Assembly: GCF_001461035.1 (NCBI RefSeq)
Contig: NZ_LNAM01000112.1
Coordinates: forward strand, 1-64,000
Source of the DNA: Acetivibrio ethanolgignens
Lineage (GTDB): Bacteria > Bacillota > Clostridia > Lachnospirales > Lachnospiraceae
Direction: 5' to 3'
Length of the DNA: 64,000 nt
Shown here: piece after piece, positions 14,561 through 62,382 of the stretch
Numbering within the stretch: position 1 is the stretch's first letter
Layout of the letters: each line of letters begins with the position of its first letter
Notes under the pieces: generated by a model
The model's input: the letters and a program-made list of their open reading frames with translations, nothing else
What the model was told of the DNA's origin: nothing
The model's database searches: none
Made by a program: the position numbers and the translations under genes

Positions 14561-14597
14561 GATTTCGGAGGCTGTAAAAAACTCCCCCCTAAGAAAA

Positions 14598-14629: not shown

Positions 14630-14631
14630 GG

Positions 14632-15398: not shown

Positions 15399-15426
15399 TT
15401 GAAAATAATTTCTTAAATGCTATACT
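15399..15426 (+). promoter_or_regulatory. Promoter with palindromic operator, second nan operon
   Basis: TTGAAA (15399-15404), a 16-base spacer and TATACT (15421-15426). The -35 lies in TTGAAA-ATAA-TTTCTT, an operator half-conserved with the perfect palindrome at 8377-8392. CTTTCAAAA also recurs upstream (15377-15385). The wider leader 15190-15430 is similar to 8190-8410. Both operons are therefore probably under one regulator, plausibly the RpiR protein of this cluster. Confidence 0.72.
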
Positions 15427-15452
15427 TGAGATATCAAAAGGAGGCATGACCG

Positions 15453-15754: not shown

Positions 15755-15779
15755 TAAAGGATTAAAAGGAGGAGTTAAA

Positions 15780-17468: not shown

Positions 17469-17549
17469 GATTTAGACTAAATTGCAATGGACCGGGGGAT
17501 TGTATGAGGATTTTCGTGCAATCCCCATGCTTTATAGAAAGGTGATTGA

Positions 17550-18512: not shown

Positions 18513-18522
18513 GAGGGATAGG

Positions 18523-19452: not shown

Positions 19453-19461
19453 GAGGTTCAA

Positions 19462-21496: not shown

Positions 21497-21503
21497 AGAG
21501 GAA

Positions 21504-22421: not shown

Positions 22422-22432
22422 GGACTGATAGA

Positions 22433-22882: not shown

Positions 22883-22892
22883 TAAAGGCGAG

Positions 22893-22930
22893 AACCCCTT
22901 GGCTGCCGGTTAGGTAAGAAAGGGGTTTTT
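22893..22930 (+). terminator. Hairpin with T-run inside the second nan operon
   Basis: Arms AACCCCTT (22893-22900) and AAGGGGTT (22920-22927) and a run of five Ts. It lies between the YhcH-type gene and the first esterase. It probably reduces readthrough into the esterase-nanK-rpiR-nagA half. Confidence 0.7.
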
Positions 22931-22950
22931 GTGCAGAAAGGAAGGGGAAA

Positions 22951-24878: not shown

Positions 24879-24892
24879 AATGGAGAGAAAAA

Positions 24893-25795
24893 ATGGAAAG
24901 GTATGTTAGCATTGATATTGGAGGAACTGCGATAAAATATGGAATTATTGATGAAAATGGGAAGATTCTGGAACGAAGGGAGAAGCCGACCGAGGCTTTT
25001 ATGGGCGGACTATCAATTTTAAAAAAAACCGTTGATATTGTAGAAAATTTTCAGAAGAATTTTGAAATCAATGGCATCTGTATTTCTACAGCAGGTATGG
25101 TAGATGTGAAAAAGGGCTCTATTTTTTATTCTGGGCCACAGATTCCGGATTATGCAGGTACGCAGTTTAAAAAGACCATGGAGGAACGTTTTGGAATTCC
25201 TTGTGAAGTGGAAAATGACGTTAACTGTGCTGGTCTTGCAGAGAGTGTATCCGGAGCAGCAAAGGACAGCTGTATTACTTTGTGTCTGACAATTGGAACA
25301 GGGATTGGTGGTTGCATTGTTATTAATGGAGAGGTGTTCCGTGGCTACAGTGGTAGTGCCTGCGAGGTGGGATATATGCATATGCTGGATAGCGATTTTC
25401 AGACACTGGGTGCAGCCAGCGTGCTGACTAAAAAGGTAGCTGCAAAGAAAAAGGAAGCGAAGAGCAGCTGGAACGGATACCGAATTTTCGAGGAAGCGAA
25501 AAAGGGAGATAGGATTTGCTGCGAGGCAATTGACGAGATGGTGGAGGTTTTGGGAAAAGGAATTGCTAATATCTGTTATGTTATTAACCCACAGATGGTT
25601 GTATTGGGCGGTGGAATTATGGCACAGAAGGAATATCTGTATCCACGGATTCTTTGTGCAATGGAGCGTTATCTGGTATCGAGCATCGCACAAAAGACAA
25701 CTCTTCGGATGGCAGAGCATAAGAATGATGCTGGTATGCTGGGGGCCTTTTATCATTTCAGGAATTGCCAGAAGGAAAGGGAAATGGTAAAATAA
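24893..25795 (+). CDS. nanK: ROK-family N-acetylmannosamine kinase
   Basis: A 300-residue ROK kinase, expected to phosphorylate ManNAc for NanE. ATP-binding SIDIGGTAIKYG (residues 5-16), catalytic Asp in VENDVNCAGLAE (about 104-115), IGTGIGGCIVINGEV and a late VVLGGGIMAQ are all visible. The usual ROK zinc loop (CxCGxxGCxE) is missing: after EVGYMH the sequence is MLDSDFQTLGAAS with no cysteines. It overlaps nothing but ends 26 bases before the RpiR start. Glucokinase is the alternative, less likely in this context. Confidence 0.87.
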   Translation: MERYVSIDIGGTAIKYGIIDENGKILERREKPTEAFMGGLSILKKTVDIVENFQKNFEINGICISTAGMVDVKKGSIFYSGPQIPDYAGTQFKKTMEERFGIPCEVENDVNCAGLAESVSGAAKDSCITLCLTIGTGIGGCIVINGEVFRGYSGSACEVGYMHMLDSDFQTLGAASVLTKKVAAKKKEAKSSWNGYRIFEEAKKGDRICCEAIDEMVEVLGKGIANICYVINPQMVVLGGGIMAQKEYLYPRILCAMERYLVSSIAQKTTLRMAEHKNDAGMLGAFYHFRNCQKEREMVK

Positions 25796-25821
25796 GGATA
25801 AGGAAGAGAGGACGTGGTGTT

Positions 25822-26667
25822 ATGGCAGGGTATGTGAAATCGATTATTCCAATTATTGAATCAAAGTATGATAATTTTACTCAAGTAGAGAAGTGTATTG
25901 CGGATTTTTTTCTTAAAAACAGGGATAATTTGGACTTTTCAGCCAAAAATATTGCAGAGCTGCTATTTGTATCAGAAGCGTCTCTTTCGCGTTTTGCGAA
26001 AAAATGTGGTTTTCATGGATACCGAGAATTTATTTACCAATATGAAGAATGTCTGTCAGAGTCAGAACGAAAGGAAGCTGCGGCTAGTAATACACGGACG
26101 GTGCTGAATATTTATCAGGATATATTAAATAAGACTTATAACCTAATGGATGAAGGTCAGGTTATGCGGATTGTGCATTATATGAATGAAGCGGAGAGAG
26201 TCTTTGTCTGCGGAAAAGGAAGCTCTGGGCTGGCAGCAAGCGAGATGGAAGTTCGATTTATGCGTATTGGCGTGGACATTGACTCATTGCAGGATACAGA
26301 TCGGATGAAGATGCAGGCAGTGTTTCAGGATAAGTATAAGCTGGTGTTTGGAATCAGTTTGAGCGGAGAGACAGAGGAGATTATCTATCTTTTGCAGGAA
26401 TCTTACAAGAGAGGAGCTAAAACGGTTCTTTTGACAGCTAGCAATATGACCAGCTTCCAGGAATTTTGCAGTGAAGTGGTTTTAGTACCTTCTTTAAAGT
26501 ATTTGAACCATGGAAATATTATATCACCGCAGTTCCCGATTTTAGTAATGATAGATATTCTTTATTATTACTATGTAAATCAGGACAAATATGGAAAAGA
26601 GATATTGCATGATAATACGCTGCGAGCCTTAAAGGAAGGAAAAAGGCCACAGCGAATGATAGAATAG
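25822..26667 (+). CDS. RpiR-family (HTH-SIS) regulator of the nan cluster
   Basis: A 281-residue regulator. Residues about 1-75 form the RpiR helix-turn-helix (FTQVEKCIADFFLKN, then FVSEASLSRFAKKCGFHGY). Residues about 110-260 form an SIS sugar-phosphate-binding domain (FVCGKGSSGLAASEMEVRF, GISLSGETEEI). The start at 25822 (MAGYVKSIIP) is chosen because the longer frame from 25765 overlaps nanK and adds a non-homologous basic stretch. RpiR-type NanR proteins sense ManNAc-6-P or GlcN-6-P. Palindromes overlapping the promoters at 8377 and 15399 are its likely sites. Confidence 0.88.
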   Translation: MAGYVKSIIPIIESKYDNFTQVEKCIADFFLKNRDNLDFSAKNIAELLFVSEASLSRFAKKCGFHGYREFIYQYEECLSESERKEAAASNTRTVLNIYQDILNKTYNLMDEGQVMRIVHYMNEAERVFVCGKGSSGLAASEMEVRFMRIGVDIDSLQDTDRMKMQAVFQDKYKLVFGISLSGETEEIIYLLQESYKRGAKTVLLTASNMTSFQEFCSEVVLVPSLKYLNHGNIISPQFPILVMIDILYYYYVNQDKYGKEILHDNTLRALKEGKRPQRMIE

Positions 26668-26678
26668 GAGATGGGAAA

Positions 26679-27818
26679 ATGATTATTCAAAGTGAAAGAG
26701 TGTGGATTGGAGGCCAGTTTATTCCAGCACAGTTAGAAATTTCCGATGGAAAAATCGAAAGGATTTACGGTTATCAGAAAAAGGCGGCCGATGTGGATTA
26801 TGGTACAGATAGGATGCTGCCGGGTTTTATTGATGTACATACTCATGGAGCTTATGGCTTTGACACAAACGATGGTGAGCCGGAGGGATTGCGTGAGTGG
26901 ATGAAGAGGATTCCGGAAGAGGGAGTTACCTCCATCCTGCCGACAACGGTGACACAGATGCCGGATGTGCTGACAAAGGCAGTTGCAAATGTAGCGGCAG
27001 TAATAGAAGAGGGGTATGAAGGAGCCGAGATTTTAGGAATTCATTTTGAGGGTCCATATCTGGATATGCAGTATAAGGGTGCCCAGCCACCGGAGGCGAT
27101 TGCTGAGCCTTCCGTGGAGCAGTTTAAGATGTACCAGGAGGCAGCGAAGGGCTGGATTAAGTATATTACGGTCAGCCCGGAGCATGATAAGGATCTTGCA
27201 CTGACCCGCTACTGTGCCCAGAACGGTGTGGTTGTCAGTATGGGACATTCTTCTGCTACTTACGAGGAAGGGGTGTTAGCAATAGCCAATGGTGCCTCCT
27301 CTATGACACATGTTTATAACGGAATGACGGGATTCTTGCACCGTGCACCTGGACTTGTGGGTACGGCACTCCGCGTAAGAGATATCTATGGTGAGGTTAT
27401 CGGTGATGGACACCATTCCCATGTGGCAGCTCTCAATGTATTTTTCCAGAGCAAGGGATGTGACAGAGGGATTCTTATAACGGATTCCCTTCGGGCAAAG
27501 CACTGCCCGCCGGGAGGAAATTACCAGCTGGGAGGTCATGACATCGAAATCAGTAAGGAGGGACTGGCTTATCTTAGGGGAACCCAGACTATTGCAGGAA
27601 GTACGCTTTCTATGAATATGGGACTTAAGATTCTGGTAGAAAAGGCAGGTATTCCAATGGATGCAGCTATCAATGCCTGCACAAGGAATCCGGCCAGATG
27701 CTTAGGTGTGGATAAAAGAAAAGGATGTCTGTGTGCCGGCTATGATGCAGATATTGTTGTACTGACAAATGATTATGAGGTAGTACAGACCTACTGCTGC
27801 GGCAAAGCATTTTTATAA
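26679..27818 (+). CDS. nagA: N-acetylglucosamine-6-phosphate deacetylase
   Basis: A 379-residue amidohydrolase converting GlcNAc-6-P to GlcN-6-P and acetate, the last step before the NagB reaction. Visible family sites: DVHTHGAYGFDTND, GIHFEGPYL, SMGHSSATYEEG, MTHVYNGM, DGHHSHVA and the catalytic Asp in ITDSLRA. Length is normal. It is the last gene of the cluster, 11 bases after rpiR, followed by a terminator. No nagB is in the window, so a chromosomal copy elsewhere is expected. Confidence 0.95.
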   Translation: MIIQSERVWIGGQFIPAQLEISDGKIERIYGYQKKAADVDYGTDRMLPGFIDVHTHGAYGFDTNDGEPEGLREWMKRIPEEGVTSILPTTVTQMPDVLTKAVANVAAVIEEGYEGAEILGIHFEGPYLDMQYKGAQPPEAIAEPSVEQFKMYQEAAKGWIKYITVSPEHDKDLALTRYCAQNGVVVSMGHSSATYEEGVLAIANGASSMTHVYNGMTGFLHRAPGLVGTALRVRDIYGEVIGDGHHSHVAALNVFFQSKGCDRGILITDSLRAKHCPPGGNYQLGGHDIEISKEGLAYLRGTQTIAGSTLSMNMGLKILVEKAGIPMDAAINACTRNPARCLGVDKRKGCLCAGYDADIVVLTNDYEVVQTYCCGKAFL

Positions 27819-48034: not shown

Positions 48035-48045
48035 TTGAGCAAAAA

Positions 48046-48254
48046 TTCTTGTTTTTCCTGTCCGGAGCAGATATAATAAAACAAACAGTAGAGAAAGTGG
48101 ATTGAAAGGATGATAGAGTGGAGATAAAAGAAATCGGAAGGATGATGTATACACTGCGGCTTAAGAAGGGGATTTCCCAGGAGGATCTGTGCCGTGGGCT
48201 TTGTTCTGTAGCCACGCTTTGCCGCATGGAAGTAGGGGAACGGCGGCCGGATAT
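48046..48254. repeat. Direct repeat, copy 1 (promoter and 5' end of HTH-TPR regulator)
   Basis: These 209 bases match 51672-51880 without gaps and with about 15 mismatches by eye (roughly 93%). The repeat carries promoter TTGTTT-17-TATAAT, the ribosome-binding site and the first 45 or so codons of the regulator. Beyond it the two loci differ completely. Confidence 0.92.
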
Positions 48255-48258
48255 ATGA
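48118..48258 (+). pseudogene. Truncated HTH-TPR regulator (first module)
   Basis: From GTG 48118 the frame encodes the helix-turn-helix of the intact regulator at 51744 (LRLKKGISQEDLCRGLCSVA) and stops at codon 47 after GERRPDI. The stop is created where the gene is joined to the end of an ABC-transporter gene. Without the TPR region it is not a complete regulator, although the 46-residue DNA-binding part could still be made. Confidence 0.85.
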
Positions 48259-48964
48259 GTATTTATTTACAGAAAAGAAAGCAGCGGAGGGAAAAGTGCC
48301 TGATCCCATGGGGCAGGGTGAACTCACTCTGTCTGTAGACATTTTTGAATTTGGATGGAAGGGAAAGGGAGGGCTCCTCAAAAATATCCACGAAGAATTT
48401 AAAGCCGGGGATAAGATTTTTGTCCAGGGAGAAAGCGGAGCAGGGAAAAGTACCTTTTTAAAATTGCTTTGCGGCTTTTATCCTGTCCGGGAAGGAGAAA
48501 TAAGACTTAATGGCTGCAATATTGCGGAGATTGAAGAGGAGGAGCTGTTTCGTTATATAAAAATCCAGTTTCAGGAGTCGATCATTCTGGAGGGAAGCCT
48601 GCGAAGAAATCTGGAGCTGGGGCAGAGCTTTTCCGAGGAGGAGATCTGGAACGCCTTAGAGATGGTGAATTTAAGCGGATTTGCAAAGGAAAACGGGCTG
48701 GAGCATCTGATTGCCGAAAATGGTAAAAATCTGTCGGGCGGACAAAAGCAGCGGCTGGCTCTGGCAAGGGTTTTACTAAGAAAACCGCCGATTTTGATCC
48801 TAGACGAAGCGACCAGTGCCTTAGATGAGGAAAATGAACAGGAGATCATAAAAAATGTAAATCGCTATGTGGAAGAAACGGGGGCTATTTTAATACTGAC
48901 TTCCCATAGGGAGGCATTGAAGAAGATCTGCAATAAAACCTTGTTTTTAAATTCTTCGGTATGA
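48257..48964 (+). pseudogene. ABC exporter nucleotide-binding domain, membrane part deleted
   Basis: In frame from 48257 the sequence reads EYLFTEKKAAEGKVPDPMGQ, a linker normally joining the membrane domain to the ATPase. A full nucleotide-binding domain follows: Walker A GESGAGKST, signature LSGGQKQR, Walker B ILILDEATSALDEE and TSHRE. The membrane domain is missing. The deletion joins it to the truncated regulator. It is a different, diverged homologue of the exporter at 56015. A GTG at 48296 could in theory start a free ATPase, but there is no good ribosome-binding site. Confidence 0.8.
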
Positions 48965-49010
48965 TGAAAAAAATAAAGAAAAAGAGGATTGCATAAAACT
49001 AGAGAAATCC

Positions 49011-49032
49011 AATTTATATAGTGCCTATATCC
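49011..49032. repeat. Operator-like repeat, copy 1 (ATATAG-TGC-CTATAT)
   Basis: The 22-base sequence containing ATATAGTGCCTATAT, an inverted repeat with 6-base halves, recurs exactly at 55972-55993 and in altered form at 55937-55958. Here it lies between the broken ABC gene and a copy of the island palindrome. Confidence 0.75.
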
Positions 49033-49033
49033 T

Positions 49034-49075
49034 AAACTGGAAAAATATTTTTTCCAGTTTTGTCATGGTCTTTTT
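49034..49075. repeat. Island palindrome, degraded copy
   Basis: Arms AAACTGGAAAA (49034-49044) and TTTTCCAGTTT (49050-49060) plus the following TGTCATGGTCTTT match the core and right side of the longer palindrome at 53770-53822. The outer left arm is lost. The hairpin plus Ts could end transcription from the broken ABC gene. Confidence 0.8.
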
Positions 49076-49092
49076 AGAGAATAGGAAATATA

Positions 49093-49839: not shown

Positions 49840-51056
49840 ATGAATAATAGAAGTAGCAATAATTATTTGCAAGGATTTTCTAAAATTAAGAAATTGTATA
49901 TAAGTATAATGTTGTTATATGAATTAGCAGATAAATTGTTTGGCTCAATATATATTGCTTTTATGCGTTCAAAAGGGCTGACACTTATACAAATATCAAG
50001 ATTATTCAGTATTGAACAAATATTGTTAGCAATATTTGACTACCCGACAGGAGCTATTTCAGACAAGATGGGTAGAAAAAAGTGGCGGCTTACGGATTTA
50101 TTATATGGGGATTAGGAATCCTACAATTTGCATTTTCAACAAATTTTTGGTTATTTTTGCCAGCAATGGTATTAATGGCATTGGGATTGGCATTAATTTC
50201 CGGAGCTCCTTCTGCATGGCTGATTGATCAGATGATTGCTTATGGAGTATATGAAAAGCGAGATCAAATATTCCCTAGAATTCAGGCAAGTGTTCGTTTC
50301 TTTTCAATAATTGCATTAATTAGCTCATATATATTTATTGGTATAGCAGAACGGTTACCAATTATTATAGCTGGTTGTACAGCAATTATAGCAGGTATAA
50401 CTGCTTTGATTATTGGTGAAGATAATTATGGAGAAATAAACGGTAACAATATATTTAACATAATGCATATCTATTTAAAAGATTTTGTAAAAGAAAAAAA
50501 ATTAGTAGTATTAGCATTACGGAATATTATTTGTTATACTTCATTTATTGCTTTTGTTTTATACTGGCAAATTTATGCTACGGAGATAATAGAAATTAAA
50601 AATAAATATTTAGCAGTTTTTCTTATAGCATTTATGATTTTGCTTATGATGGGAAATTTTTCGGTAAGTATATTAACAAAGAGGATTAATAGTTTTATGA
50701 CTTCTATCTTAGGAATAGTAATCAGTATTCTGGGGTTCGGACTCCTTTTAACCTTCCAATCACTCACTATTTTTATAGTTGCAGCAGGATTAGTTGAGTT
50801 TGGTTTTGGAGTAGAACAGGCATCTACATCAACTTGGGTATGTGATTATATCAAAAGTGAAACAAGAGCTACTTATAGCTCTATATTCAGTACAATTCAA
50901 GCAGTAGGAGGTTTTTTGATTACTAATTTTTTGGGATTGCTAACAGAAGCTACTGCTGTAAATACGGCATGGATTGTGGCAATTGTGGCGATGATTTCAG
51001 ATATATTAATTTTAGTTGTTTTTTATTATAAATATAGAAATAAGAGAACCCTATAG
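49840..51056 (+). pseudogene. MFS transporter with a frameshift in an A-run
   Basis: Two overlapping frames (49840-50115 and 50082-51056) together make one 12-helix major facilitator protein of about 405 residues. The first ends with DYPTGAISDKMGRKK, the conserved loop 2-3 motif; the second continues with AAYGFIIWGLGILQF. The break is at the run of six As at 50076-50081: one more A would restore a single frame. It is therefore inactive as written, or phase-variable through slippage, or a sequencing error. Substrate unknown; efflux of an island product is possible. Confidence 0.85.
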
Positions 51057-51671: not shown

Positions 51672-51880
51672 TTCTTGTTTATCCTGTCCAGAACAGATAT
51701 AATAAAACAAACAGTAGAGAAAGTGGATTGAGAGGATGATAGAGTGAAGATAAAAGAAATCGGAAGGATGGTGTATACACTGCGGCTTAAGAAGGGGATT
51801 TCCCAGGAAGACTTGTGCCGAGGGCTTTGTTCTGTAGCCACACTTTGCCGCCTGGAGGTAGGAGAACGGCGTCCGGATAT
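51672..51880. repeat. Direct repeat, copy 2 (promoter and 5' end of HTH-TPR regulator)
   Basis: Partner of 48046-48254. In this copy the repeat continues into the intact regulator. Confidence 0.92.
51675..51703 (+). promoter_or_regulatory. Promoter of the HTH-TPR regulator with a small palindrome in the spacer
   Basis: TTGTTT (51675-51680), 17 bases, TATAAT (51698-51703). The spacer holds CTGT-CCAGA-ACAG, which could be an autoregulatory site. The same promoter occurs in copy 1 with CTG-TCCGGAG-CAG. Confidence 0.65.
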
Positions 51881-53564
51881 TCTCGTATTTAATGCCCTGA
51901 TGCAACGTCTGGGCAAAAATCCATATATGATAGATACCGTATTAACGCTGGAGGAGTTCTCCTATTTTGTAAAACGGAGGAATATTGAGATTTCTCTGGA
52001 GCTGAAGGAGTATGAGCGGGCAGAAAAAGAGCTTTTAGAGCTGGAAGCAGAGGAAATACAGGAGCCATTGCGAAGGCAGGATATATATCGGATGTATGGG
52101 CTTTTGTATCTTTCATGGGAGAAAAAAGAAAAGGCAGAGGAATATCTGCAGAAGGCGATTTCCGAGACATTACCGGAATTTGCAGAGGCTGATATAAGAG
52201 AGCTTTGGCTGAGTGAAACAGAAACGGTTTTACTTCTGCTGTATGCATATGCACTGGAACCAGAGGCTAAAAATGTAGAAAAGCTGTTATTAGCTATAAA
52301 GCAGTATATCTGGCAAAAGATAACCGATGAGGAAGCGGCGGACAAAAGAATGGCACAGACCATGTATTTGCTGGCTCGGCTCAAAAGAAATCAAAAGCAA
52401 TGGAAGGAATGTTACCGATGCTGTGAAGCCGTCATTGAGGCAGAGGTAAAAAACGGAGTATTGCTTCTGCTTCCACAGGCATTGCAGATGGAGCTGCTCT
52501 GTCTGGAGCAGGGGCTTTCTATAGAAAATGCTGAGCTTAGAAAAAAAGAATACCAGGCACTCTCAGAGCTGATGCTAGAATATGGCAGAGGAATCGTGGA
52601 AGAAAATGAAAATCTTGTGTCATTTACAAAAGAAGCTTCGCAGGAAAAGCAGGTAATTGATGAATTAATCAGCAGGGCAAGGGAAAGAAAGGAAATGACT
52701 CAGGAGGAATTAAGTGAGCAAATCTGTGCACCGGAAACTCTGTCAAGAATCGAAAGGGGAAAACGTAATCCTACCATTAAAAATTTTCATGCGTTTATGG
52801 AAAGGCTGGAATTAGGGATGGGATATTATAACACGGATTTAAAAGTAAAACAATTTGAAACCTTGGAAAAAGGGCAACAGCTTCGGAAGGCGGTTATCCT
52901 GCAAAGATATGAAGAGGCAGAAGAGCTGTTAAAAGAAATTGAATTTGAAATCGATGCTACAGCAGTAGAAAATAAGCAGTATCTTGAGTTTTACCATATA
53001 GCAATAGATGAAAGTCTTGAAAAAATAAGTGCTAGTGAGGCACTGCAAAGATTAGAGAGTGCATTGGAGCTAAAGCTAAAAAAGCAGGAGGATGGTTTCC
53101 CACTACCAAAGCAGCTGACTTCAGTAGAAATCAGTCTATTTAATTCCATGGCCATCCGATGGAAAAAGCAGGGAAAACAAAAGAAATCGGTTGAGATTTT
53201 AAAAGCTCTTTATGATTATTTTAAAGAAAGTAAGGTAGAAAAGGAACTGGGAGCTTCTGAGCATGGAAGAGATTTTCTTATGGTTTTAAGCAATCTGGCT
53301 TCCCATACGGAAGAAACAGACGATTTGGTGCAGGCAATGGAGTATGTGAAAGAAGTAATTGAAGAAGGTATCCGAATCGGTGTAGGGATACGGATAGGAA
53401 AAAACCTGATATTAAAGGGCTATATTCAGGAGCGGGAGGGAAAAGAAATATGCCTGCAGACGTATCGACAGGCATATTATCTGTGTGAGCTATATAAGGA
53501 CTTTAAGAATAAACATAAAGTAAAAGAGCATGTAGAGGATGTTCTTAAATGCAGGTTAGAGTAG
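51744..53564 (+). CDS. Double HTH-TPR regulator of RRNPP (Rgg/NprR/PlcR) character
   Basis: A 606-residue cytosolic regulator starting at GTG 51744. It contains two similar halves. Each half has an XRE-type helix-turn-helix (residues about 5-58, LRLKKGISQEDLCRGLCSVA; and about 304-360, ARERKEMTQEELSEQICAPE, ending SRIERGKRNPTIKNF) followed by TPR-like helical repeats (for example YRMYGLLYLSWEKKEKAEEY). A single HTH plus TPR is the plan of peptide-sensing RRNPP regulators of about 290-420 residues; two units in one chain is unusual. A small exported-peptide gene lies tail to tail with it, one base apart. It probably senses that peptide and controls the neighbouring RiPP genes. A truncated sister copy is at 48118. 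Confidence 0.82.
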   Translation: MKIKEIGRMVYTLRLKKGISQEDLCRGLCSVATLCRLEVGERRPDILVFNALMQRLGKNPYMIDTVLTLEEFSYFVKRRNIEISLELKEYERAEKELLELEAEEIQEPLRRQDIYRMYGLLYLSWEKKEKAEEYLQKAISETLPEFAEADIRELWLSETETVLLLLYAYALEPEAKNVEKLLLAIKQYIWQKITDEEAADKRMAQTMYLLARLKRNQKQWKECYRCCEAVIEAEVKNGVLLLLPQALQMELLCLEQGLSIENAELRKKEYQALSELMLEYGRGIVEENENLVSFTKEASQEKQVIDELISRARERKEMTQEELSEQICAPETLSRIERGKRNPTIKNFHAFMERLELGMGYYNTDLKVKQFETLEKGQQLRKAVILQRYEEAEELLKEIEFEIDATAVENKQYLEFYHIAIDESLEKISASEALQRLESALELKLKKQEDGFPLPKQLTSVEISLFNSMAIRWKKQGKQKKSVEILKALYDYFKESKVEKELGASEHGRDFLMVLSNLASHTEETDDLVQAMEYVKEVIEEGIRIGVGIRIGKNLILKGYIQEREGKEICLQTYRQAYYLCELYKDFKNKHKVKEHVEDVLKCRLE

Positions 53565-53565
53565 T

Positions 53566-53712
53566 TTACTTATCATAGTCATCGGTAAAATCACATATAG
53601 AGATATGGCTCTCTGTTTTAGGAACCTGGTTGGTATTAGTTTGTAGGAGTGAACAGACTAATAGGGAAAAAATAATAAGTGATGCTAGGTGTTTTTTTAA
53701 AGTTTTTTTCAT
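53566..53712 (-). CDS. Small exported peptide, candidate signalling pre-peptide for the HTH-TPR regulator
   Basis: A 48-residue frame on the minus strand with a strong AGGAGG site nine bases before the ATG at 53712. The N-terminus is a signal-peptide-like MKKTLKKHLASLIIFSLLVC; it has no proper lipobox. The polar C-terminal part contains QVPKTESHISIC and an acidic end DFTDDYDK. Size, design and tail-to-tail position with an RRNPP-type regulator match pre-peptides such as those of NprX or Phr type. The mature signal would come from the C-terminal part. A minus-strand promoter-like TATACT lies at about 53751-53746. No homologue is known to me. Confidence 0.7.
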   Translation of the reverse strand: MKKTLKKHLASLIIFSLLVCSLLQTNTNQVPKTESHISICDFTDDYDK

Positions 53713-53769
53713 TTGGGATTTTCCTCCTCTGATGTAATTTTGTAGTATAGTATATCGAATATTCTAGTA

Positions 53770-53822
53770 AAAGACCATGACGAAACTGGAAAAAAATATT
53801 TTCCAGTTTCGTCATGGTCTTT
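53770..53822. repeat. Long perfect palindrome between the peptide gene and the RiPP operon
   Basis: Arms of 24 bases (53770-53793 and 53799-53822), each containing GACCATGACGAAACTGG or its complement, around a 5-base loop AAATA. It lies midway between the divergent starts of the peptide gene (53712) and the maturase gene (53882), and its right arm overlaps where the -35 of the maturase promoter should be. It could be a regulator site for both genes or a bidirectional terminator. A degraded copy is at 49034-49075. Confidence 0.88.
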
Positions 53823-53836
53823 CTAGGCTTTTTAGT

Positions 53837-53842
53837 TATAAT
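53837..53842 (+). promoter_or_regulatory. -10 element of the RiPP operon
   Basis: TATAAT at 53837-53842, 40 bases before the maturase start. The -35 region (53814-53819) is ATGGTC, far from consensus and inside the palindrome arm, suggesting activator dependence. Confidence 0.5.
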
Positions 53843-53881
53843 TGGAGTCAGAAGTTACGAAAAAGGAGAGCTGCATAAAAG

Positions 53882-55699
53882 ATGAGTAAACATTTATATT
53901 TAATTGATAGTAATTATATACTTGTGAAAATTGTTTCTTTACTAGATAAAAATAAAGAAAAAGCATTTTTGGTTTCTGGAAGAGAAAAAGAAGGGGATTG
54001 CATAGAACTAGAGGAATATTTTGATATGGAAGAATATGTACAAGCTGATTCCAGAAACTTGATGCAAATTGATAGACAGTTTTTTTATGCAGCATTAAAG
54101 GGATTTACAAAAGAAAACAAAATACTTATTTTTATTCATTCACACCCAAACACAAGAAAGGGAGAACTTCAGTTTTCAGCAGCAGATGATAATTATTATA
54201 TTTCTTTATTAAAAGAGGCCAAAAATATAGGCTATGATTTACCGCTTATATTTGCAGTAATAAATGAAGAGGATATAATATTTAAAGGATTTGATAAGAA
54301 TGGAGTAGGAATTGTTTGTTCTATTGAGGAAGGCTATGAAAACTATTCAGAGAAACGATATAGTATAGAGGTTATTTACAATGACGACTTTGAAAAAGGC
54401 GTTATTTACCATAAAGCAAATAATGAAGCTAAAGTTGTAGATAGAGAAACTGCAAAAGAAATTAAACATTGGCAATCAAAATATGAAAGTAATGTTTTAA
54501 GTAAACTTCAACAAATGGCATATAGAAGAATGATTACAGATAGTTTCCCATATAGGGAATACCGTCCGAATTTATCTGCACGGAATTATATGGATAATAA
54601 AACATTGGATAATTTACAGTTGATGCTCCAATTAGGTTGCAATCTTAGATGTAAATATTGTTATGCAGAGGCAGGGACTTATTTGCATAAGAAAAATATT
54701 ATTATGACAATAGATACAGCAAAAAAAATTATAAAGAGCTTACTTAGAAAAGGAATCCATACAATTCGTAACATTTTCTTTTTTGGAGGAGAACCGTCCT
54801 TATATCCTGAGGTAATTACTGGAGTATGTGATTATTGTGCGGAATTAGTTTCGCAAGGGAAATTGGAAAGTATGCCAACCTTTACAATGGTTACAAATGC
54901 AGTCAAAATGAATGAAGAGCTTATCACTGCAATAGAAAAATATGGAATTAAGGTAACTGTCAGTATAGATGGGCCGAAGGAAATTAATGATAAATTAAGA
55001 GTACGTCAGGACGGCTCAGGAACGTATAGTGTCATTCATCGTAATATAGAAAGAATGCAAGAAAAAAATGCCGCACCTGTTATGCTGGAAGCTACTTATA
55101 CTAAAATTCATGAGAAAAACCAAATGAGCAGAGATGAATTGAGAAACTATTTGCAAAAAGAGTTTGGTATTTCGACTGTGTATATAGCAGATTGTGATGG
55201 AAGTGAATTAGAGCCAGATGCTAAAGAGGATTCAGTAAAAGATTATATTCATTGTATTTGTAAAACAATGAATGAGAATAGGAAATTATCTGCTGATATA
55301 GGAAAGAAATTACTGCAAGTACAGAGTAATTTAAATAATAAAGGCTATAGAAATAACCTCTTCTGTTTGGCTGGATATAGAATGATTTGCGTGCTGGGTA
55401 ATGGAGACTATTATCCTTGTCATAGATTTATAAAGAATGCAGATTATAAAATTGGTAATCTGATAGAAGAGGGAACTCTTAATTTAAGGGAATATACTAA
55501 TAAGGACAACTATGATAAGTGTCGAAATTGCTGGGCACAAGAATTTTGTGGAGAATGTAGCTGGGATATTTTTTCTTCTGGTATTGAAAAGGCAAAATGT
55601 GATGATGTTAAAAAATTCACAGCTTATTCTATGTTAGCTATAGCAAATTTGAGTGAAAAGCAGAGAGCATTCTTTTATAATGAAGCAATAGGGAAGTAA
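53882..55699 (+). CDS. JAMM-protease / radical-SAM / SPASM fusion, RiPP maturase
   Basis: A 605-residue protein. Residues about 1-150 look like a prokaryotic JAB/JAMM metalloprotease: a candidate Glu26 (KEKAFLVSGR), HSHP (86-89) and FSAADD with Ser99 and Asp102, the zinc-binding pattern HxHP...SxxD. After a connector comes a radical SAM domain with C253-x3-C257-x2-C260 (LGCNLRCKYCY) and FFFGGEPSLYP. The C-terminus is a SPASM domain with cysteines at 495, 503, 513, 547, 550, 556, 559 and 573 for extra Fe-S clusters. SPASM maturases install thioether or other links in RiPP precursors; a 43-residue Cys-rich peptide gene follows at 55767. The fused JAMM part could remove the leader. The linkage type is unknown. 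Confidence 0.88.
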   Translation: MSKHLYLIDSNYILVKIVSLLDKNKEKAFLVSGREKEGDCIELEEYFDMEEYVQADSRNLMQIDRQFFYAALKGFTKENKILIFIHSHPNTRKGELQFSAADDNYYISLLKEAKNIGYDLPLIFAVINEEDIIFKGFDKNGVGIVCSIEEGYENYSEKRYSIEVIYNDDFEKGVIYHKANNEAKVVDRETAKEIKHWQSKYESNVLSKLQQMAYRRMITDSFPYREYRPNLSARNYMDNKTLDNLQLMLQLGCNLRCKYCYAEAGTYLHKKNIIMTIDTAKKIIKSLLRKGIHTIRNIFFFGGEPSLYPEVITGVCDYCAELVSQGKLESMPTFTMVTNAVKMNEELITAIEKYGIKVTVSIDGPKEINDKLRVRQDGSGTYSVIHRNIERMQEKNAAPVMLEATYTKIHEKNQMSRDELRNYLQKEFGISTVYIADCDGSELEPDAKEDSVKDYIHCICKTMNENRKLSADIGKKLLQVQSNLNNKGYRNNLFCLAGYRMICVLGNGDYYPCHRFIKNADYKIGNLIEEGTLNLREYTNKDNYDKCRNCWAQEFCGECSWDIFSSGIEKAKCDDVKKFTAYSMLAIANLSEKQRAFFYNEAIGK

Positions 55700-55766
55700 T
55701 AAAATTGAACATTGGTTCTTAAGCAAAAATGCTTTTGAATAAATAAAAAACACGGAGGAAAAGTAA

Positions 55767-55898
55767 ATGGAAATCAAAAATTTAGTAGAGGTAGAAATGA
55801 AAAATCTTTCAGAGGAAGAAATTTTAGATGCAGAGAAGGTAGCAGAAAATGTTGGCTCCTGCGGATTAGGCTGTGGTGGAACAAAAAGTATGTATTAA
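55767..55898 (+). CDS. Cys/Gly-rich RiPP precursor peptide
   Basis: A 43-residue peptide with a good GGAGG site, 67 bases after the maturase. The leader is helical and acidic (MEIKNLVEVEMKNLSEEEIL, then DAEKVAENV). The core is GSCGLGCGGTKSMY with two cysteines in CGLGCG and a terminal tyrosine. Such a leader plus short Cys/Gly core beside a SPASM maturase is typical of radical-SAM RiPPs, and I recall clostridial Cys-rich peptides with CGLGCG cores whose maturases are called CcpM; that link is from memory. Possible leader cleavage is at or before VG-SC. Confidence 0.85.
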   Translation: MEIKNLVEVEMKNLSEEEILDAEKVAENVGSCGLGCGGTKSMY

Positions 55899-55936
55899 TT
55901 ATTTTACCGATGAAATTATTGTAAAATAAGAGTAAC

Positions 55937-55958
55937 AATTTATATAGGTGCTGTATAC
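55937..55958. repeat. Operator-like repeat, variant copy
   Basis: AATTTATATAGGTGCTGTATAC, here described in two parts: AATTTATATAG followed by GTGCTGTATAC. It is an altered form of the repeat 35 bases downstream, with the same centre-to-centre face of about three helical turns. Confidence 0.55.
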
Positions 55959-55971
55959 TTTTGAGGAATCA

Positions 55972-55993
55972 AATTTATATAGTGCCTATATCC
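55972..55993. repeat. Operator-like repeat, copy 2 (ATATAG-TGC-CTATAT)
   Basis: Identical over 22 bases to 49011-49032. It lies 21 bases before the exporter gene. With the variant at 55937 it forms a tandem pair between precursor and exporter, suggesting a separate control of the exporter. Confidence 0.75.
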
Positions 55994-56014
55994 CAATAAG
56001 GAGAACTTAAGCTT

Positions 56015-57727
56015 ATGAAATCTAAAAAAGTTAAAATTAATTCATATTTTATAAAAAATAAAGGGGTTCTGTTTGGACTGGTTAGTTTTTCTATTTTGAG
56101 CGGAATAGGGGAAAGCTTGTGGTCCTTCATATTTCAAGAGCTTTATGAAATTACAGGACGTATGACCGTGCCCTCAATTCTAAGTCTTCTGTGTGCTGTG
56201 GCCGGAGTTTTTTGCTTTTGCATGATAACGGGGAATGTAGCTGTTTATTTTCGCAGAGTTTTACTGAAAAATATGAATCTGCAACTAAAAACAGATGTTT
56301 TTCAAACCATTATGAATAAGAATATAGAAGAATTTACGGAAAGCAACAGTGCAAGGTATATTTCACTTTTAAATAATGATGTAGCGAATCTGGAAAATCA
56401 ATATTTCCAGTCAATACCTATGATAATAGATAGAATTTGTATTTTTATAGCTTGTACTCTGGTTTTAGTTTATTATAACGTGTTTATTGCGATAGTTGTT
56501 ATATTGACAGCTTTTTTTCTGGCTTCTATTCCTATATTGTTTGGGAAGAAGATTACCGAAAGAGAAAGATTCGTCTACGAAGAGATGGAAAACTATAACG
56601 GAAAGCTGAAGGATTTGTTGAATGGATTTGAGGTTGTAAAAAGTTTTCATGCAACAAAACAAGCTGGCACACTTTTTGAAGAAAGCGTTACAAAGGTAGA
56701 AAATGCAAAATATAAGGTGAGGAAATTTCAGAATCCTTTCTCTGTATTTTTACTTATGCTGACTTACCTGGTGATTATTATGCAGCTTTTATTTGCGGCA
56801 TATATGGCTTATATTGGAAAGATACCGGCCAGTGCGATTATGAGTATTTTTTATTTGATTTCCAGTATTAACAATCCTGTGAAGGATATTGCAGAGGGGT
56901 TGTTGACGATACGTTCGGCTCTTCCAAATATTCAAAAGATTGAGATGCTTTTTGATGAGCAGACGAAGAAGGATAATAAAGATTTGGTGAAGAATGTGGA
57001 TTCTGTTATGCCACTGACAATAAAAGAGCTTTCCTTTGGGTATGAGAAAAAGAAAGAAATTTTACACAAGTTAAATTTTCAGTTTGAGAAAAATAAAAAA
57101 TATGCGGTTGTTGGCAACAGCGGCTCTGGAAAATCAACGCTGGTAAAGCTTTTGATGAAATATTATGATACCTATGATGGTAATATTTACTGGGGAGATT
57201 GTGAACTTAGAAACCTGGATAAAGAATTTCTCTGTACCCAGGTAGCTATGATTCATCAAAGAGTATTCTTATTTGAAGACACCCTGCGAAATAATATTAC
57301 CATGTTTCAGGAATATTCCGAGGAAGAAATTCAATATGCAGTGGAAAGCTCCGGGTTGAGGGAAGTAGTGGAGCGTCAGCCGGAGGGATTGGATTTTGTT
57401 ATTCACGAGAATGGAAATAATTTTTCCGGCGGGGAACAGCAGAGAATTTCGATTGCCAGAGCAATTTTGAAAAAGACAAAGGTACTGCTTTTAGATGAGG
57501 CTACTTCCAGCCTGGACAAGAAAATGGCTTCACAGATTGAGAAGCTTATTTTGAGTCAGCCGGAAATGACAGTGATTGTAGTAACACATAAATTAGATGC
57601 TGATATATTGAAGCAGTATGACTGTATTTTAGCTATGAACCATGGTAATTTTATAGAAACGGGAAGCTTCGATGAATTGATGGCAAAACGGGAATTTTTC
57701 TACAGCCTGTATACCGTTAATGAATGA
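56015..57727 (+). CDS. ABC exporter (fused membrane and ATPase domains) of the RiPP locus
   Basis: A 570-residue half-transporter. Six membrane helices (about 15-300) precede the ATPase domain with Walker A GNSGSGKST (about 367), signature FSGGEQQR (about 471), Walker B VLLLDEATSSLD and VVTHK. There is no N-terminal C39 peptidase domain, so it cannot itself cut a double-glycine leader. It follows the precursor by 116 bases and should export the modified peptide, as a homodimer. It may also give self-protection. Confidence 0.9.
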   Translation: MKSKKVKINSYFIKNKGVLFGLVSFSILSGIGESLWSFIFQELYEITGRMTVPSILSLLCAVAGVFCFCMITGNVAVYFRRVLLKNMNLQLKTDVFQTIMNKNIEEFTESNSARYISLLNNDVANLENQYFQSIPMIIDRICIFIACTLVLVYYNVFIAIVVILTAFFLASIPILFGKKITERERFVYEEMENYNGKLKDLLNGFEVVKSFHATKQAGTLFEESVTKVENAKYKVRKFQNPFSVFLLMLTYLVIIMQLLFAAYMAYIGKIPASAIMSIFYLISSINNPVKDIAEGLLTIRSALPNIQKIEMLFDEQTKKDNKDLVKNVDSVMPLTIKELSFGYEKKKEILHKLNFQFEKNKKYAVVGNSGSGKSTLVKLLMKYYDTYDGNIYWGDCELRNLDKEFLCTQVAMIHQRVFLFEDTLRNNITMFQEYSEEEIQYAVESSGLREVVERQPEGLDFVIHENGNNFSGGEQQRISIARAILKKTKVLLLDEATSSLDKKMASQIEKLILSQPEMTVIVVTHKLDADILKQYDCILAMNHGNFIETGSFDELMAKREFFYSLYTVNE

Positions 57728-57811: not shown

Positions 57812-58717
57812 ATGGAAAATTATGCTGTTTTATCAATAGAAACCCATTTATTTTTTGCAAGAATTATGAGAGAGCATGCACTTTTCCTGGAGGCTGGCTT
57901 CCCTTGTAAGGAAACAGCCTGGATACAGAAGGCCGATTGGCTGCGGAGGCAGTTTGAGGCGCTGTTAAGAGATGTAACAGGTCTTGCCAATGGAAGAGTG
58001 GGAAGCTGTATATTGAATTCAGGAGAAGTGGTGACTGAGTTTACTATACCGGCAGAGAGAAAAACGGAAGGCTTAAGCGGAATCCCGATTGACAGCCGGA
58101 TTTCCCGGATGCAGCACAGGCTCCTGCCAGGCTGCCCGCGGAGAGAAAATAGAGAGCTTAACCGGATAGCTAAGGGGATTAATAGAAGAGCCATGGAGCT
58201 TTTGAAGGAACTGATCCGTTTTAAGGAGGCAATGCTTCAGAGAATTGGAGAGGGAGAGCTTTTTAATACCAATTATCCTCTTTTGATAGAGCATATACTT
58301 CGGGAAGCGAAGCTGTACCGGGCCACGATAGAGGGGCTTGAGAGAAATGATATGGTCTGCTATGAGGATCTTAGAGAAACAGAACGCTTCTGGAACCGGA
58401 TTATGATGGAGCATGCTTTGTTTATCCGGGGACTTTTGGATCCTACGGAGGAGGAGCTGATTGATATGGCAGACGGCTTTGCCGAGGATTATAAGAGGCT
58501 TCTGGAAATGGCAAAGCGGCAGGATATGCGAGCCATGGATGAGCTGACGAGAAAATCCCTAGAGGAAACGATAAAATACCGTGAGTTTAAAGCGACAGGT
58601 GCAGAGGGAATTTTAGATAATAAAATTGCCTCTATTATTTTACCTCTGCTTGCAGACCATGTACTCCGGGAGGCAAATCATTATATCCGGCTTTTAAGCT
58701 GTGACCGTAGAGCTTAG
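57812..58717 (+). CDS. DUF2935 protein with duplicated helical domain
   Basis: A 301-residue protein of two similar halves. Each half starts with an E/H-containing helix (FFARIMREHALFLEAGF; FWNRIMMEHALFIRGLL) and has a second metal-ligand-like helix (PLLIEHILREAKLY; PLLADHVLREANHY). The pattern of paired His/Glu in a four-helix bundle suggests a metal site, but function is unknown. No signal peptide. It is 11 bases upstream of a multicopper oxidase gene, so a role in that protein's metal supply or localisation is plausible. Confidence 0.82.
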   Translation: MENYAVLSIETHLFFARIMREHALFLEAGFPCKETAWIQKADWLRRQFEALLRDVTGLANGRVGSCILNSGEVVTEFTIPAERKTEGLSGIPIDSRISRMQHRLLPGCPRRENRELNRIAKGINRRAMELLKELIRFKEAMLQRIGEGELFNTNYPLLIEHILREAKLYRATIEGLERNDMVCYEDLRETERFWNRIMMEHALFIRGLLDPTEEELIDMADGFAEDYKRLLEMAKRQDMRAMDELTRKSLEETIKYREFKATGAEGILDNKIASIILPLLADHVLREANHYIRLLSCDRRA

Positions 58718-58728
58718 GAGGTGGGGAA

Positions 58729-61700
58729 ATGGAACTGTGCTGTTATCCGGACCTTGGGAAAACAAGGTATTATGAGATTGAAGCTATTGAAATTCCTATT
58801 GTTTACAATAAGTATGGAGACCATGACCCGAATGGGCTTTTATATGTACTGAAGAAGGATGCTGACAGAGTGCGGGAAGGGGCAATCCGTAATTTTTCCC
58901 AGGAGGTACCACAGCCTTATGAAGGGGTAAAGCCTTTAGTGATTCGTGCTAATGTAGGGGATAAAATTGTAGTCACCTTCCATCATTCCCTGAAGCGTGA
59001 CCTGTCCATCCATGTACAGGGGCTCGCCTATGATGTACAGACATCAGACGGTGCAAGCGTAGGCTTTAACCGGGATTCTACGACAAAGAACGGTATTGTT
59101 TATACCTGGTATGCTGTCCGGGAGGGTGTTTATCTGTTCAGCGACATGGGAGATACCAGAAGCAGTGAAGAGGGAACTAATGTACACGGGCTTTTTGGAG
59201 CGATAATCGTGGAGGCAGCAGAATCAAAATGGCTGGACCCACAGACAGGCGAGGAGCTGGAAAGCGGCTTGTTTGCTGATATTTATCATCCGACAAAGCC
59301 AGCCTTTCGGGAATATGCCGTTTTTTTCCATGATGAGCTGGAGATAAAAAACAAGGATGGAGAACAGCCGAAAGACCCTCATACGGGGCTGCCATCGGCT
59401 ACGACAGCCATCAGCTACCGTTCAGAGCCGATGAGAAACAGAGAACCTCTTACGGATGACCATGCAGATACCGGAGAGGATATTTCCATGAGCTCCTGGG
59501 TCTATGGTGACCCTGCACCGCCGATTTTACGGGCTTATGTAGGAGACCCGTCCAAGATACGGCTGATTCATGGAGGAGTGAAGGAGACTCACGTTTTCCA
59601 CCTGCACAATCATCAGTGGAGGCTGGAGGGAGAAAATCCTCTTTCGACCATTATTGATTCTATTTCTATCAGTCCTCAGGAGTGCTATACCCTGGATATT
59701 CTTCATGGAGCCGGCAGTCTGAATGGAATGATAGGAGATGCTATTTTTCATTGCCATTTGTATCCTCATTTTCATGAAGGAATGTGGACCTTGTGGAGGA
59801 TACATGACCGCCTGGAGGAGGGAGATGGAGAACTGCCGGACGGTACAAGAATACCGCCGCTTATGCCACTAAAGGATCGTATGCCGCCTCCGAAAAAGGA
59901 GGAAGAGCATCCGGGCTATCCGAACTTTATCAATGGAACGGTAGGGGAAAGACCGCTTCAGCCGCCACTTGGAGTGCTGGATATGGATGGAAATCCTACG
60001 AATGAGCCAACTGAGCTGGAGAGAGCAAATTTTGTGGAGGGCTTTGAGCCGGGAGCCCTTTATACAGATACCTGTCCATGTGAGGTAGAGACAAAGGTAT
60101 TTGAAATTGCTCTGGTGCAGGCAAAGCTTATCTATAACCGCTATGGCTGGAATGACCCGCAGGGAAGATTCTTTGTTATGAAGGAGGAGTTAGAACGGCA
60201 TGGTGGACTGGAGGCTTATATACAGAAGGTAGAGGCAGGGAAAATACGCGTAGAGCCGCTGGTTATCCGTGCCAATGCCGGAGACTGTATTGAGGTGCGG
60301 TTTACCAATCTGCTTCCGGAATATCTGGAGGAAAGTCCTTTCCAGATGAGGACGCTGACGGATATTACCGGCTATCATATCCATCTTGTAAAATTTGACA
60401 CGATTGTTTCCGATGGAGCGGCCAATGGCTGGAACAATATTGCCGGAGCCAGAAAATACGAAACCCTGATAGAACGATTTTTTGCAAATACGGAGCTTCG
60501 TACCGTGTTTTTCCATGACCACCTGTTTGCCAATGTCCATCAGATGCATGGAGTGTTTGGTGCTCTGATTGTGGAGGAGGCTGGGGCAACCTTCCATAAT
60601 ATACGGAATGGAAAGGAATTAAAATACGGTCCGCGGGCAGTGATAAGAAGAAAGGATGGTACCTCCTTCCGGGAATTTGCCCTGTTTGTGCATGATTTTT
60701 CCATGCTCTTTGATAAAAAGGGGCGTCCTTTAAATCCACCGGAGGTACCTGGCTCCCATGATGACCCTGGTGTTATGGGAATTAATTATCACTCGGAGCC
60801 GATGCGGGAGAGACTAAAATGTCATGATGACCCGGCCTATATTTTCAGCTCCCTGGTGCATGGAGACCCGGCCACACCGATTCTGGAAACCTATCCGGGA
60901 GATGAAATCATAATCCGTCTGCTGGACGGAGCTCATGAAGAACAGCATGCTTTTAACCTTACCGGTCTGTCCTGGAAAAAGGAGCCTTCTGATCCGGCTT
61001 CACCGGATACGGCCTCCCAGACCATAGGTATTTCCGAGGCCTTTAATATCCACATCACAAAAGGATATGCCGCAGGAGATTATCTCTATTATTTTGGAGG
61101 AATTGATGATGCATGGCTGGGACTTTGGGGAATTCTGAGAGCCTACGAAAAGCCGAAGAAATGCCTGAAGCCTCTGTGTAAGGGAAGGGACAGGATACTG
61201 CCGTTGCCGCTGTGTCCGGCTTGGGATGCGGTGATTCGGAAATACGAGGTAGCGGCGGTTCAAAGGGATATCCGGTATAACCGATATGGAGACCATGACC
61301 CGAATGGACTCTTGTTTGTACCACTGAAAGAGGCAGAGCGGGCTCTGTGTGACAAGGATTACCAGCCAAAGCCATTGATTCTTCGTGCTAATGCCGGAGA
61401 GTGGATAGAGGTGACCCTTCACAACCTCTTTGACCCGCAAAAGCCGATTCCGTATTTTGACTATCCAAGGGTTCCGCTGGATTGTGAGCATACGCCATCG
61501 GTAAGGGTTTCTCTGAATCCGCAGTTTTTAAGCTATGACCCGGTAAAGGATTCCGGTATCAATGTAGGCTATAATAATCAGGAGCAGACGGTAGGTATCG
61601 GAGAAAGTAAGAAATACCTGTGGTATGCCGATAAGGAATATGGTTCCTGTATCCTGCAGTCCTTTGGCGACATGAGAAACCATAGATATCACGGTTTGTT

Positions 61701-62382
61701 TGGTGCAGCAGTAATAGAACCACCAGGAGCAAGGTGGTATAATAGCTTTTCGCTTTGCCCGGCTCTTTATGAGGAAGAGGCGGTTATCAGTGCACCAGGA
61801 GCAGAAAGCTTCCGGGAGTGCGTTGTTATGATTCAAAATGGAATCCGTCTTTTAGATAAGGAAGGAAATCTGATTAAGACAACGGCTACTGAAGTAGGGG
61901 AAGAGCCGGACGCAGAGGATACCGGAGAAAAGGGCTATAATTACCGCTCGGAACGTTTTGCTAACCGGCTTAAACAGGATGACAGGATTTCAAAGGTATT
62001 TAGCAGCAGGGTGCATAAGGATCCAGCGACGCCAGTTTTCAAAGCCTACTCGGGTGAAAGAGTTATTTTCCGAACGATGATGCCTGCAGATAAGCCGAGA
62101 AATGTAAGCTTTGCAGTCCACGGTCATGTGTGGAGAGAGCAGCCAGGGGATGCCTATTCCCGAGAGATTCCGCTGCAGGGGGCTGTGAGTATTGGAAATA
62201 CCTATAATATGGAGCTAAAGGATGGAGCCTCCTGTCCGGGAGACTATCTCTACCGCTCCGGCAGTCTGAAGTGGGATGTAGAATCCGGTATGTGGGGAAT
62301 TTTCCGTGTACTGAAAAAAGGCTTTGGTTGTAAGTGCAAAAAAGCTTGTCAGAAAGCTGTAGAGAAAATAAAGAGAAGATAG
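58729..62382 (+). CDS. Six-cupredoxin-domain multicopper oxidase
   Basis: A 1217-residue protein of three repeats starting near residues 1, 447 and 829, each with a line like YNKYGDHDPNGLLYVL and two cupredoxin domains. The copper motifs are complete only once. HVFHLH (288-293, HxxHxH) and HCHLYPHFHEGM (341-352, type 1 plus trinuclear ligands) close repeat 1. HIH (550-552) and HDH (596-598) open repeat 2. Equivalent positions elsewhere have lost the histidines. The trinuclear centre should therefore lie between domains 2 and 3, not first and last as in laccases. No signal peptide; the tail is basic and Cys-rich (GCKCKKACQK). Role unknown: metal oxidation or a spore-coat oxidase are options. 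Confidence 0.88.
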   Translation: MELCCYPDLGKTRYYEIEAIEIPIVYNKYGDHDPNGLLYVLKKDADRVREGAIRNFSQEVPQPYEGVKPLVIRANVGDKIVVTFHHSLKRDLSIHVQGLAYDVQTSDGASVGFNRDSTTKNGIVYTWYAVREGVYLFSDMGDTRSSEEGTNVHGLFGAIIVEAAESKWLDPQTGEELESGLFADIYHPTKPAFREYAVFFHDELEIKNKDGEQPKDPHTGLPSATTAISYRSEPMRNREPLTDDHADTGEDISMSSWVYGDPAPPILRAYVGDPSKIRLIHGGVKETHVFHLHNHQWRLEGENPLSTIIDSISISPQECYTLDILHGAGSLNGMIGDAIFHCHLYPHFHEGMWTLWRIHDRLEEGDGELPDGTRIPPLMPLKDRMPPPKKEEEHPGYPNFINGTVGERPLQPPLGVLDMDGNPTNEPTELERANFVEGFEPGALYTDTCPCEVETKVFEIALVQAKLIYNRYGWNDPQGRFFVMKEELERHGGLEAYIQKVEAGKIRVEPLVIRANAGDCIEVRFTNLLPEYLEESPFQMRTLTDITGYHIHLVKFDTIVSDGAANGWNNIAGARKYETLIERFFANTELRTVFFHDHLFANVHQMHGVFGALIVEEAGATFHNIRNGKELKYGPRAVIRRKDGTSFREFALFVHDFSMLFDKKGRPLNPPEVPGSHDDPGVMGINYHSEPMRERLKCHDDPAYIFSSLVHGDPATPILETYPGDEIIIRLLDGAHEEQHAFNLTGLSWKKEPSDPASPDTASQTIGISEAFNIHITKGYAAGDYLYYFGGIDDAWLGLWGILRAYEKPKKCLKPLCKGRDRILPLPLCPAWDAVIRKYEVAAVQRDIRYNRYGDHDPNGLLFVPLKEAERALCDKDYQPKPLILRANAGEWIEVTLHNLFDPQKPIPYFDYPRVPLDCEHTPSVRVSLNPQFLSYDPVKDSGINVGYNNQEQTVGIGESKKYLWYADKEYGSCILQSFGDMRNHRYHGLFGAAVIEPPGARWYNSFSLCPALYEEEAVISAPGAESFRECVVMIQNGIRLLDKEGNLIKTTATEVGEEPDAEDTGEKGYNYRSERFANRLKQDDRISKVFSSRVHKDPATPVFKAYSGERVIFRTMMPADKPRNVSFAVHGHVWREQPGDAYSREIPLQGAVSIGNTYNMELKDGASCPGDYLYRSGSLKWDVESGMWGIFRVLKKGFGCKCKKACQKAVEKIKRR

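Follow-up and report, generated by a model that had tools for sequence, protein, structure and literature searches.

A tandem HTH-TPR regulator, a convergent exported peptide gene and a predicted palindromic operator at a JAMM/radical SAM RiPP-type locus of Acetivibrio ethanolgignens

Gene content of the locus

The window analyzed here is a 64,000-nt stretch of Acetivibrio ethanolgignens DNA (contig NZ_LNAM01000112.1, positions 1 to 64,000). Between 51.7 and 57.7 kb it was found to carry, in this order, the gene of a tandem HTH-TPR regulator of 606 aa (51744..53564, plus strand), a gene for a 48-aa exported peptide (53566..53712, minus strand), a palindrome (53770..53822), the gene of a JAMM/radical SAM/SPASM fusion maturase of 605 aa (53882..55699, plus strand), a 43-aa Cys/Gly precursor gene (55767..55898, plus strand) and the gene of a 570-aa ABC exporter with membrane and ATPase parts (56015..57727, plus strand). 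The initial annotation had proposed each of these parts and all of them were recovered, although the span of 53566-57727 in which it placed them leaves the regulator just outside. The combination of a radical SAM/SPASM maturase, a short adjacent precursor and an exporter is that of a RaS-RiPP operon. An Rfam search of 47.5-58 kb gave no match.

Further features were noted elsewhere in the window. A decayed and rearranged remnant of a related locus lies at 48042-49092 (plus strand), comprising the 5' end of a regulator gene (91% identity, cut short by an early stop), a piece of an ABC ATPase and fragments of the JAMM start, the precursor-ABC spacer and half of the palindrome. At 49840-51056 an MFS transporter is present in two overlapping frames (91 and 324 aa) and is apparently a pseudogene. 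The region 57812-62382 encodes a DUF2935 protein and then a 1217-aa protein which, judged by eye, appears to consist of three multicopper-oxidase-like (HxH) repeat units. A cluster for the use of sialic acid (sialidase, NanE, NanA, kinase, NagA, and a YhcH-like protein), also read by eye, occupies 8470-27818 and has an oligopeptide-type ABC importer (15735-21496) inside it.

The maturase, its precursor and a second locus

Domain searches matched the fusion protein to radical SAM (E 2.7e-18), SPASM (E 6e-4) and Prok-JAB (E 0.007), the last of these falling below the Pfam cut-off. The radical SAM core (54629..55075, plus strand) has CxxxCxxC at residues 253-260, and CteB (5wgg) is its closest solved structure. 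The SPASM region (55364..55558, plus strand) has cysteines at residues 495, 513, 547, 550, 556, and 559. Against NCBIfam equivalogs the maturase scored 186 bits for PapB (cut-off 340) and 139 bits for the SCIFF type (cut-off 425); with scores under both cut-offs and a precursor that does not have six cysteines, it falls outside the SCIFF/PapB ranthipeptide maturases.

The N-terminal JAMM (MPN+) domain (53882..54376, plus strand) was recognized from an intact HSHP..SAAD motif. A two-sequence AF2 model of residues 1-165 was of moderate confidence (pLDDT 66), and its best PDB matches in Foldseek were JAMM/MPN proteins or complexes containing them (BubCD at 1.5e-6, Rpn11, Cap3, CSN5, and AMSH). 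A multiple alignment in which JAMM and radical SAM proteins were mixed misplaced the JAMM domain and was kept out of the modelling. With both the modelled fold and the HxH..SxxD zinc/catalytic motif of JAMM/MPN+ proteins, the N-terminal domain is supported as a predicted JAMM metalloprotease.

A search of 397 Lachnospiraceae genomes with the maturase yielded one outlier, in genome G173 (36% identity, E 3e-68), most other matches being shorter and near 110 bits. The corresponding locus, L036, consists of two adjacent HTH-TPR genes, a 63-aa exported peptide gene convergent with the second of them, a palindrome in front of a JAMM gene, and then radical SAM, precursor and ABC exporter genes. Homologous loci without the peptide gene or the precursor had been expected to speak against the initial annotation; L036 retains every part. 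Proteins of the two loci share 23–36% identity. Each half of the window regulator corresponds to one of the L036 regulators, in the same order (E 3e-16 and 7e-4), and the two exporters align at E 9e-43; the JAMM similarity is weak (E 1e-4, 23% identity over the aligned part), the motif of L036 (HTH..SKQD) being intact. In L036 the regulator is split in two and JAMM and radical SAM are separate genes; the occurrence of the same parts as fusions in one genus and as individual genes in another argues for a joint function.

These two JAMM and radical SAM loci were the only ones among roughly 1,000 genomes searched with the maturase. No further locus of this kind was found in viral contigs, plasmids, phages or named genome contigs, where the matches were other radical SAM maturases. 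A radical SAM profile run over the class and nearest relatives gave G411 and G422 as the sole other strong outliers, and these were rejected as further loci for having no JAMM gene nearby. A JAMM-domain search in 392 genomes of the order returned the window only; the G173 JAMM, with no more than 23% identity where it aligns, shows how insensitive such a search is.

The precursor gene is preceded by a GGAGGA ribosome site, and its product has a core ending in GSCGLGCGGTKSMY, with CGG directly before TKSMY. It is weakly similar to the 52-aa precursor of L036, which contains CGNAIFCKGC, and to a candidate precursor in Candidatus Pseudobutyricicoccus lothianensis (L078, 7219-7353; core CGMGCDSSF) that lies beside related radical SAM maturase and ABC genes. 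Both similarities exceed those of shuffled sequence (permutation p 0.002 each), and BLASTP of the window precursor against that of L036 gave no match. No JAMM motif or tandem regulator was seen in the L078 stretch read.

The radical SAM part may install a thioether-type or similar link in the CGLGC core, and the JAMM domain would probably cleave the leader or trim the product before the ABC protein exports the modified peptide. Domain searches found neither a C39 peptidase in the exporter nor a further protease elsewhere in the operon, a result in favour of JAMM as the enzyme that cuts the leader. Leader removal is the least certain step of the mechanism, and we lean towards it only slightly. 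JAMM proteins such as Rpn11, CSN5 and AMSH are typically isopeptidases acting after a C-terminal Gly. Given this specificity and the position of CGG in the window precursor, JAMM might instead act on the mature peptide, cutting it behind Gly-Gly, or it might remove some other adduct by hydrolysis or merely assist in holding the precursor. Gly-Gly is missing from the corresponding position in the G173 precursor, and the protease complement of the operon points the other way; we consider such a role for JAMM the less probable one, at somewhat under a third.

The regulator family, its peptide gene and the palindrome

The whole regulator protein matched HTH_3 (E 8e-18) in two stretches, and its halves align with each other (34% over 98 aa, E 1e-12), unit 1 occupying about 51744-52643 and unit 2 about 52644-53561, both on the plus strand. 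Its AF2 model was confident (pLDDT 89.6, pTM 0.88). When the model was compared with the PDB by Foldseek, PlcR-PapR came first (3u3w, 2.8e-7), and ComR and Rgg2 were included among matches into which generic TPR proteins were mixed. On this model the regulator can confidently be described as two RRNPP units in one chain. It has the N-terminal HTH, the TPR and the fold of RRNPP receptors, as well as an adjacent small exported propeptide gene (53566-53712, minus strand). At 606 aa, with about 300 aa per unit, the tandem protein lies outside a length of 250-500 aa, which is a detection rule and no functional definition (PMC10075063).

When the regulator and a ten-member profile were used as queries, tandem relatives of about 600 aa, sometimes divided into two genes, were identified in Lachnospiraceae. 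A class-wide sample of 331 genomes contained a regulator-family match in 2 only, both of them Lachnospiraceae. From these sequences the tandem regulators are a Lachnospiraceae family with diverse cargo, and the earlier view of the tandem regulator as special to this locus had to be abandoned, its members standing in front of many kinds of cargo. The closest relative (L183, G397:C1), at 54–57% identity, adjoins adk-map as in the window and has a different secreted protein beside it; no clear peptide gene was found in its flank, so the module is not universal. In the family loci the gene facing the peptide gene often encodes a secreted protein, and several loci have ABC or FtsX-type genes. Two are RiPP-like. 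L192 (G173:C72) has a tandem regulator and a convergent peptide gene beside genes for a PqqD-radical SAM protein and an ABC exporter, and is likely another RiPP operon under the same type of switch. In L226 (G122:C92) the same switch precedes genes for a ThiF-PqqD protein, an M16 peptidase and an ABC exporter.

The 48-aa peptide, a putative pheromone precursor, has a K-rich start followed by a hydrophobic segment and ends in SHISICDFTDDYDK. Its gene lies tail-to-tail with the regulator gene, 1 nt from the stop. A convergent short gene with a signal-type N-terminus, as called by a simple hydrophobicity rule, was present at the regulator 3' end in 20 of the 29 family members for which the C-terminal end and flank were available, compared with 7 of 147 other genes (Fisher 5e-14). 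The two genes of the 20 loci mostly range from a 4 nt overlap to 6 nt apart, and in one further member (L187) the overlap with such a peptide gene is larger. A short motif (for example ISIC, IQVC, VSTC, IETC, or IDVC) recurs in the tails of 14 of 21 peptides, where 2.3 would be expected and 5000 shuffles gave a maximum of 11; the motif was defined post hoc, after the sequences had been inspected.

The palindrome has two 24-bp arms (53770-53793 and 53799-53822) that are 100% complementary, with the half-site ATGACGAAACTGGAAAA. Its score is 24, and shuffles of the flank never exceeded 10. With as many as 3 mismatches allowed, it occurs at a single site in the genome, which suggests a local regulon. 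Within the 260 nt upstream of the family's peptide genes, large inverted repeats are present in most loci, typically 50–65 nt before the start codon, and a strong inverted repeat was detected at 9 of 21 peptide genes compared with 2 of 188 control genes (8e-9). The outer half-site is mostly ATGACG or ATGACT followed by TTT. Twelve family loci share a palindromic operator with the half-site ATGACgTTT, in which the half-sites span 38–57 nt from outer edge to outer edge.

Candidate promoters flank the palindrome on both sides. A TATACT box (53749..53754, minus strand) is located 22 nt outside the half-site for the peptide gene, and a TATAAT box (53837..53842, plus strand) 21 nt outside it for the maturase operon. 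Across the 12 operators a -10-like hexamer starts 21–22 nt outside the half-site in 23 of the 24 flanks (shuffle mean 7.3, maximum 16), the window for the box having been set only after the sequences were inspected. The half-site is thereby located about where a -35 element would be, and no good -35 hexamer is present. This fixed spacing underlies the reading of a bidirectional, receptor-dependent promoter: the palindrome looks like two facing promoters that depend on the regulator, and it is supported as the predicted operator of the tandem regulator. Each arm may be a complete site for one double-HTH chain.

The palindrome could instead act as RNA, as a two-way terminator or an attenuator hairpin, with the regulator binding elsewhere. 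It folds very stably (-47.8 kcal/mol, z -8), a scan flags it as terminator-like, T-runs follow the arm in some relatives, and the differing arm spacing between loci would be tolerable for a hairpin loop. However, the -10 boxes lie outside the palindrome on both sides, so that neither gene's transcript would contain it. This predicted position of both start sites makes an RNA-hairpin role unlikely, and the outer half-site is conserved across genera at a fixed distance to the -10 box, as expected of a protein site. We give the RNA reading little weight and retain that of a protein-bound operator.

The peptide-signalled RiPP system proposed in the initial annotation gains support from the pairing of regulator and convergent peptide, which recurs far above background, and from the recurrence of the palindrome as an operator. 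The pairing would also be expected if the peptide were merely a regulated product, for example a toxin-like or surface peptide exported as part of the regulon, with the regulator acting as a pheromone-responsive repressor or sensing some other input. Many cargo genes do encode other secreted proteins, and binding and activation by the regulator are steps that we infer. The fixed convergent position beside the receptor, the RRNPP fold, the lack of a good -35 hexamer and the similarity to Rgg/SHP group III (PMC13361665) nevertheless favour a cognate signal and activation. A regulated product without a signalling role, or a repressor, is in our judgment improbable, if somewhat less so than the RNA hairpin.

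Proposed switch and comparison with known systems

We think it probable that the locus is a RiPP operon complete in itself, switched by a pheromone and subject to positive feedback. The 48-aa peptide would be exported by way of its signal sequence and then trimmed, and its acidic C-terminal piece would re-enter the cell and bind the tandem TPR receptor. The loaded receptor would bind the palindrome between the divergent genes, probably with one double-HTH chain on each arm of about 20 bp. There it would substitute for the -35 element and switch on both the peptide gene, closing the feedback, and the operon of maturase, precursor and exporter.

A more far-reaching possibility, which we put forward tentatively and rate below even, is that the tandem receptors form an undescribed class of quorum-sensing receptors in gut Lachnospiraceae. 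They would be pseudo-dimers, made as a single chain or from two genes, in which two peptide pockets are combined with two DNA readers. Each receptor would recognize one complete 20-bp arm of a bidirectional promoter, and the class would serve as a portable switch for many secreted products. At this locus the switch would drive a RiPP pathway with JAMM in the maturase, modification and cleavage being coupled in one enzyme. Peptide quorum sensing has been little described in Lachnospiraceae, a dominant gut family. A full-text literature search combining RRNPP-type terms with Lachnospiraceae returned no paper, and no description of the family of receptor, signal and DNA switch was found in the literature searched, most subscription papers being outside its coverage. 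As the signal gene, operator and promoter geometry can be read from sequence, the receptor family is directly testable with synthetic peptides and offers a handle for switching on silent peptide-product operons. No relevant paper was retrieved when the literature was searched for JAMM or JAB together with radical SAM. With a JAMM protease joined to it, a radical SAM maturase would contribute a class of protease that goes unmentioned in a review of RiPP leader proteases (PMC10885120).

Several known systems resemble parts of the locus. PlcR/PapR is the best structural match of the regulator and has the same HTH and TPR with an adjacent exported peptide. PlcR has one unit, about 285 aa long, and works as a homodimer, whereas the regulator here combines two units in one chain, its gene converges with that of the peptide, and its predicted target is one local site. 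The maturase resembles the CteB/PapB ranthipeptide (thioether) enzymes, CteB being the nearest solved structure and PapB the best NCBIfam match. It differs from them in scoring far below the equivalog cut-offs, in its N-terminal JAMM domain and in a precursor without the six Cys of SCIFF. The JAMM domain has the fold and HxH..SxxD motif of JAMM/MPN+ metalloproteases (Rpn11, CSN5, BubCD, Cap3), but unlike these it is either part of a radical SAM RiPP maturase or the product of a gene next to one. As in the families found by RRNPP_detector, receptor and Sec-exported propeptide are neighbouring genes (PMC10075063). The default receptor length of that program is 250-500 aa (validated range 285-473), and it would therefore skip tandem receptors of 600 aa (PMC10075063).

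The closest parallel in function is the Rgg/SHP quorum sensing that controls the streptococcal RaS-RiPPs streptide, tryglysin and streptosactin (PMC13361665). The initial annotation had drawn this parallel, and it holds as a known one: in both cases a TPR regulator and an adjacent small exported peptide are found at a radical SAM RiPP operon. Half of the Rgg/SHP pairs of S. thermophilus adjoin ThiF or radical SAM genes (PMC13361665), and the cargo of L192 and L226 is of the same kinds. The shp genes of group III run towards rgg and overlap its 3' end (PMC13361665). Of the group III features (a short hydrophobic SHP, and a single-unit rgg with which its gene converges and overlaps), convergence alone is shared, and the locus is not of this group because peptide type and receptor architecture differ. 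Here the receptor either is a double unit in tandem, about 600 aa long, or is encoded by two adjacent genes; the peptide exceeds an SHP in length and carries a Sec-type signal together with an acidic tail motif; and a long palindromic operator with two facing promoters, a JAMM partner and a Lachnospiraceae host are further differences. The initial annotation had recognized no known match for the system. The system differs from the Rgg/SHP parallel in its tandem receptor, its Sec-type pheromone family, its operator and its pairing of JAMM with a maturase, while in its manner of working it would be like the Rgg/SHP control of RaS-RiPPs.
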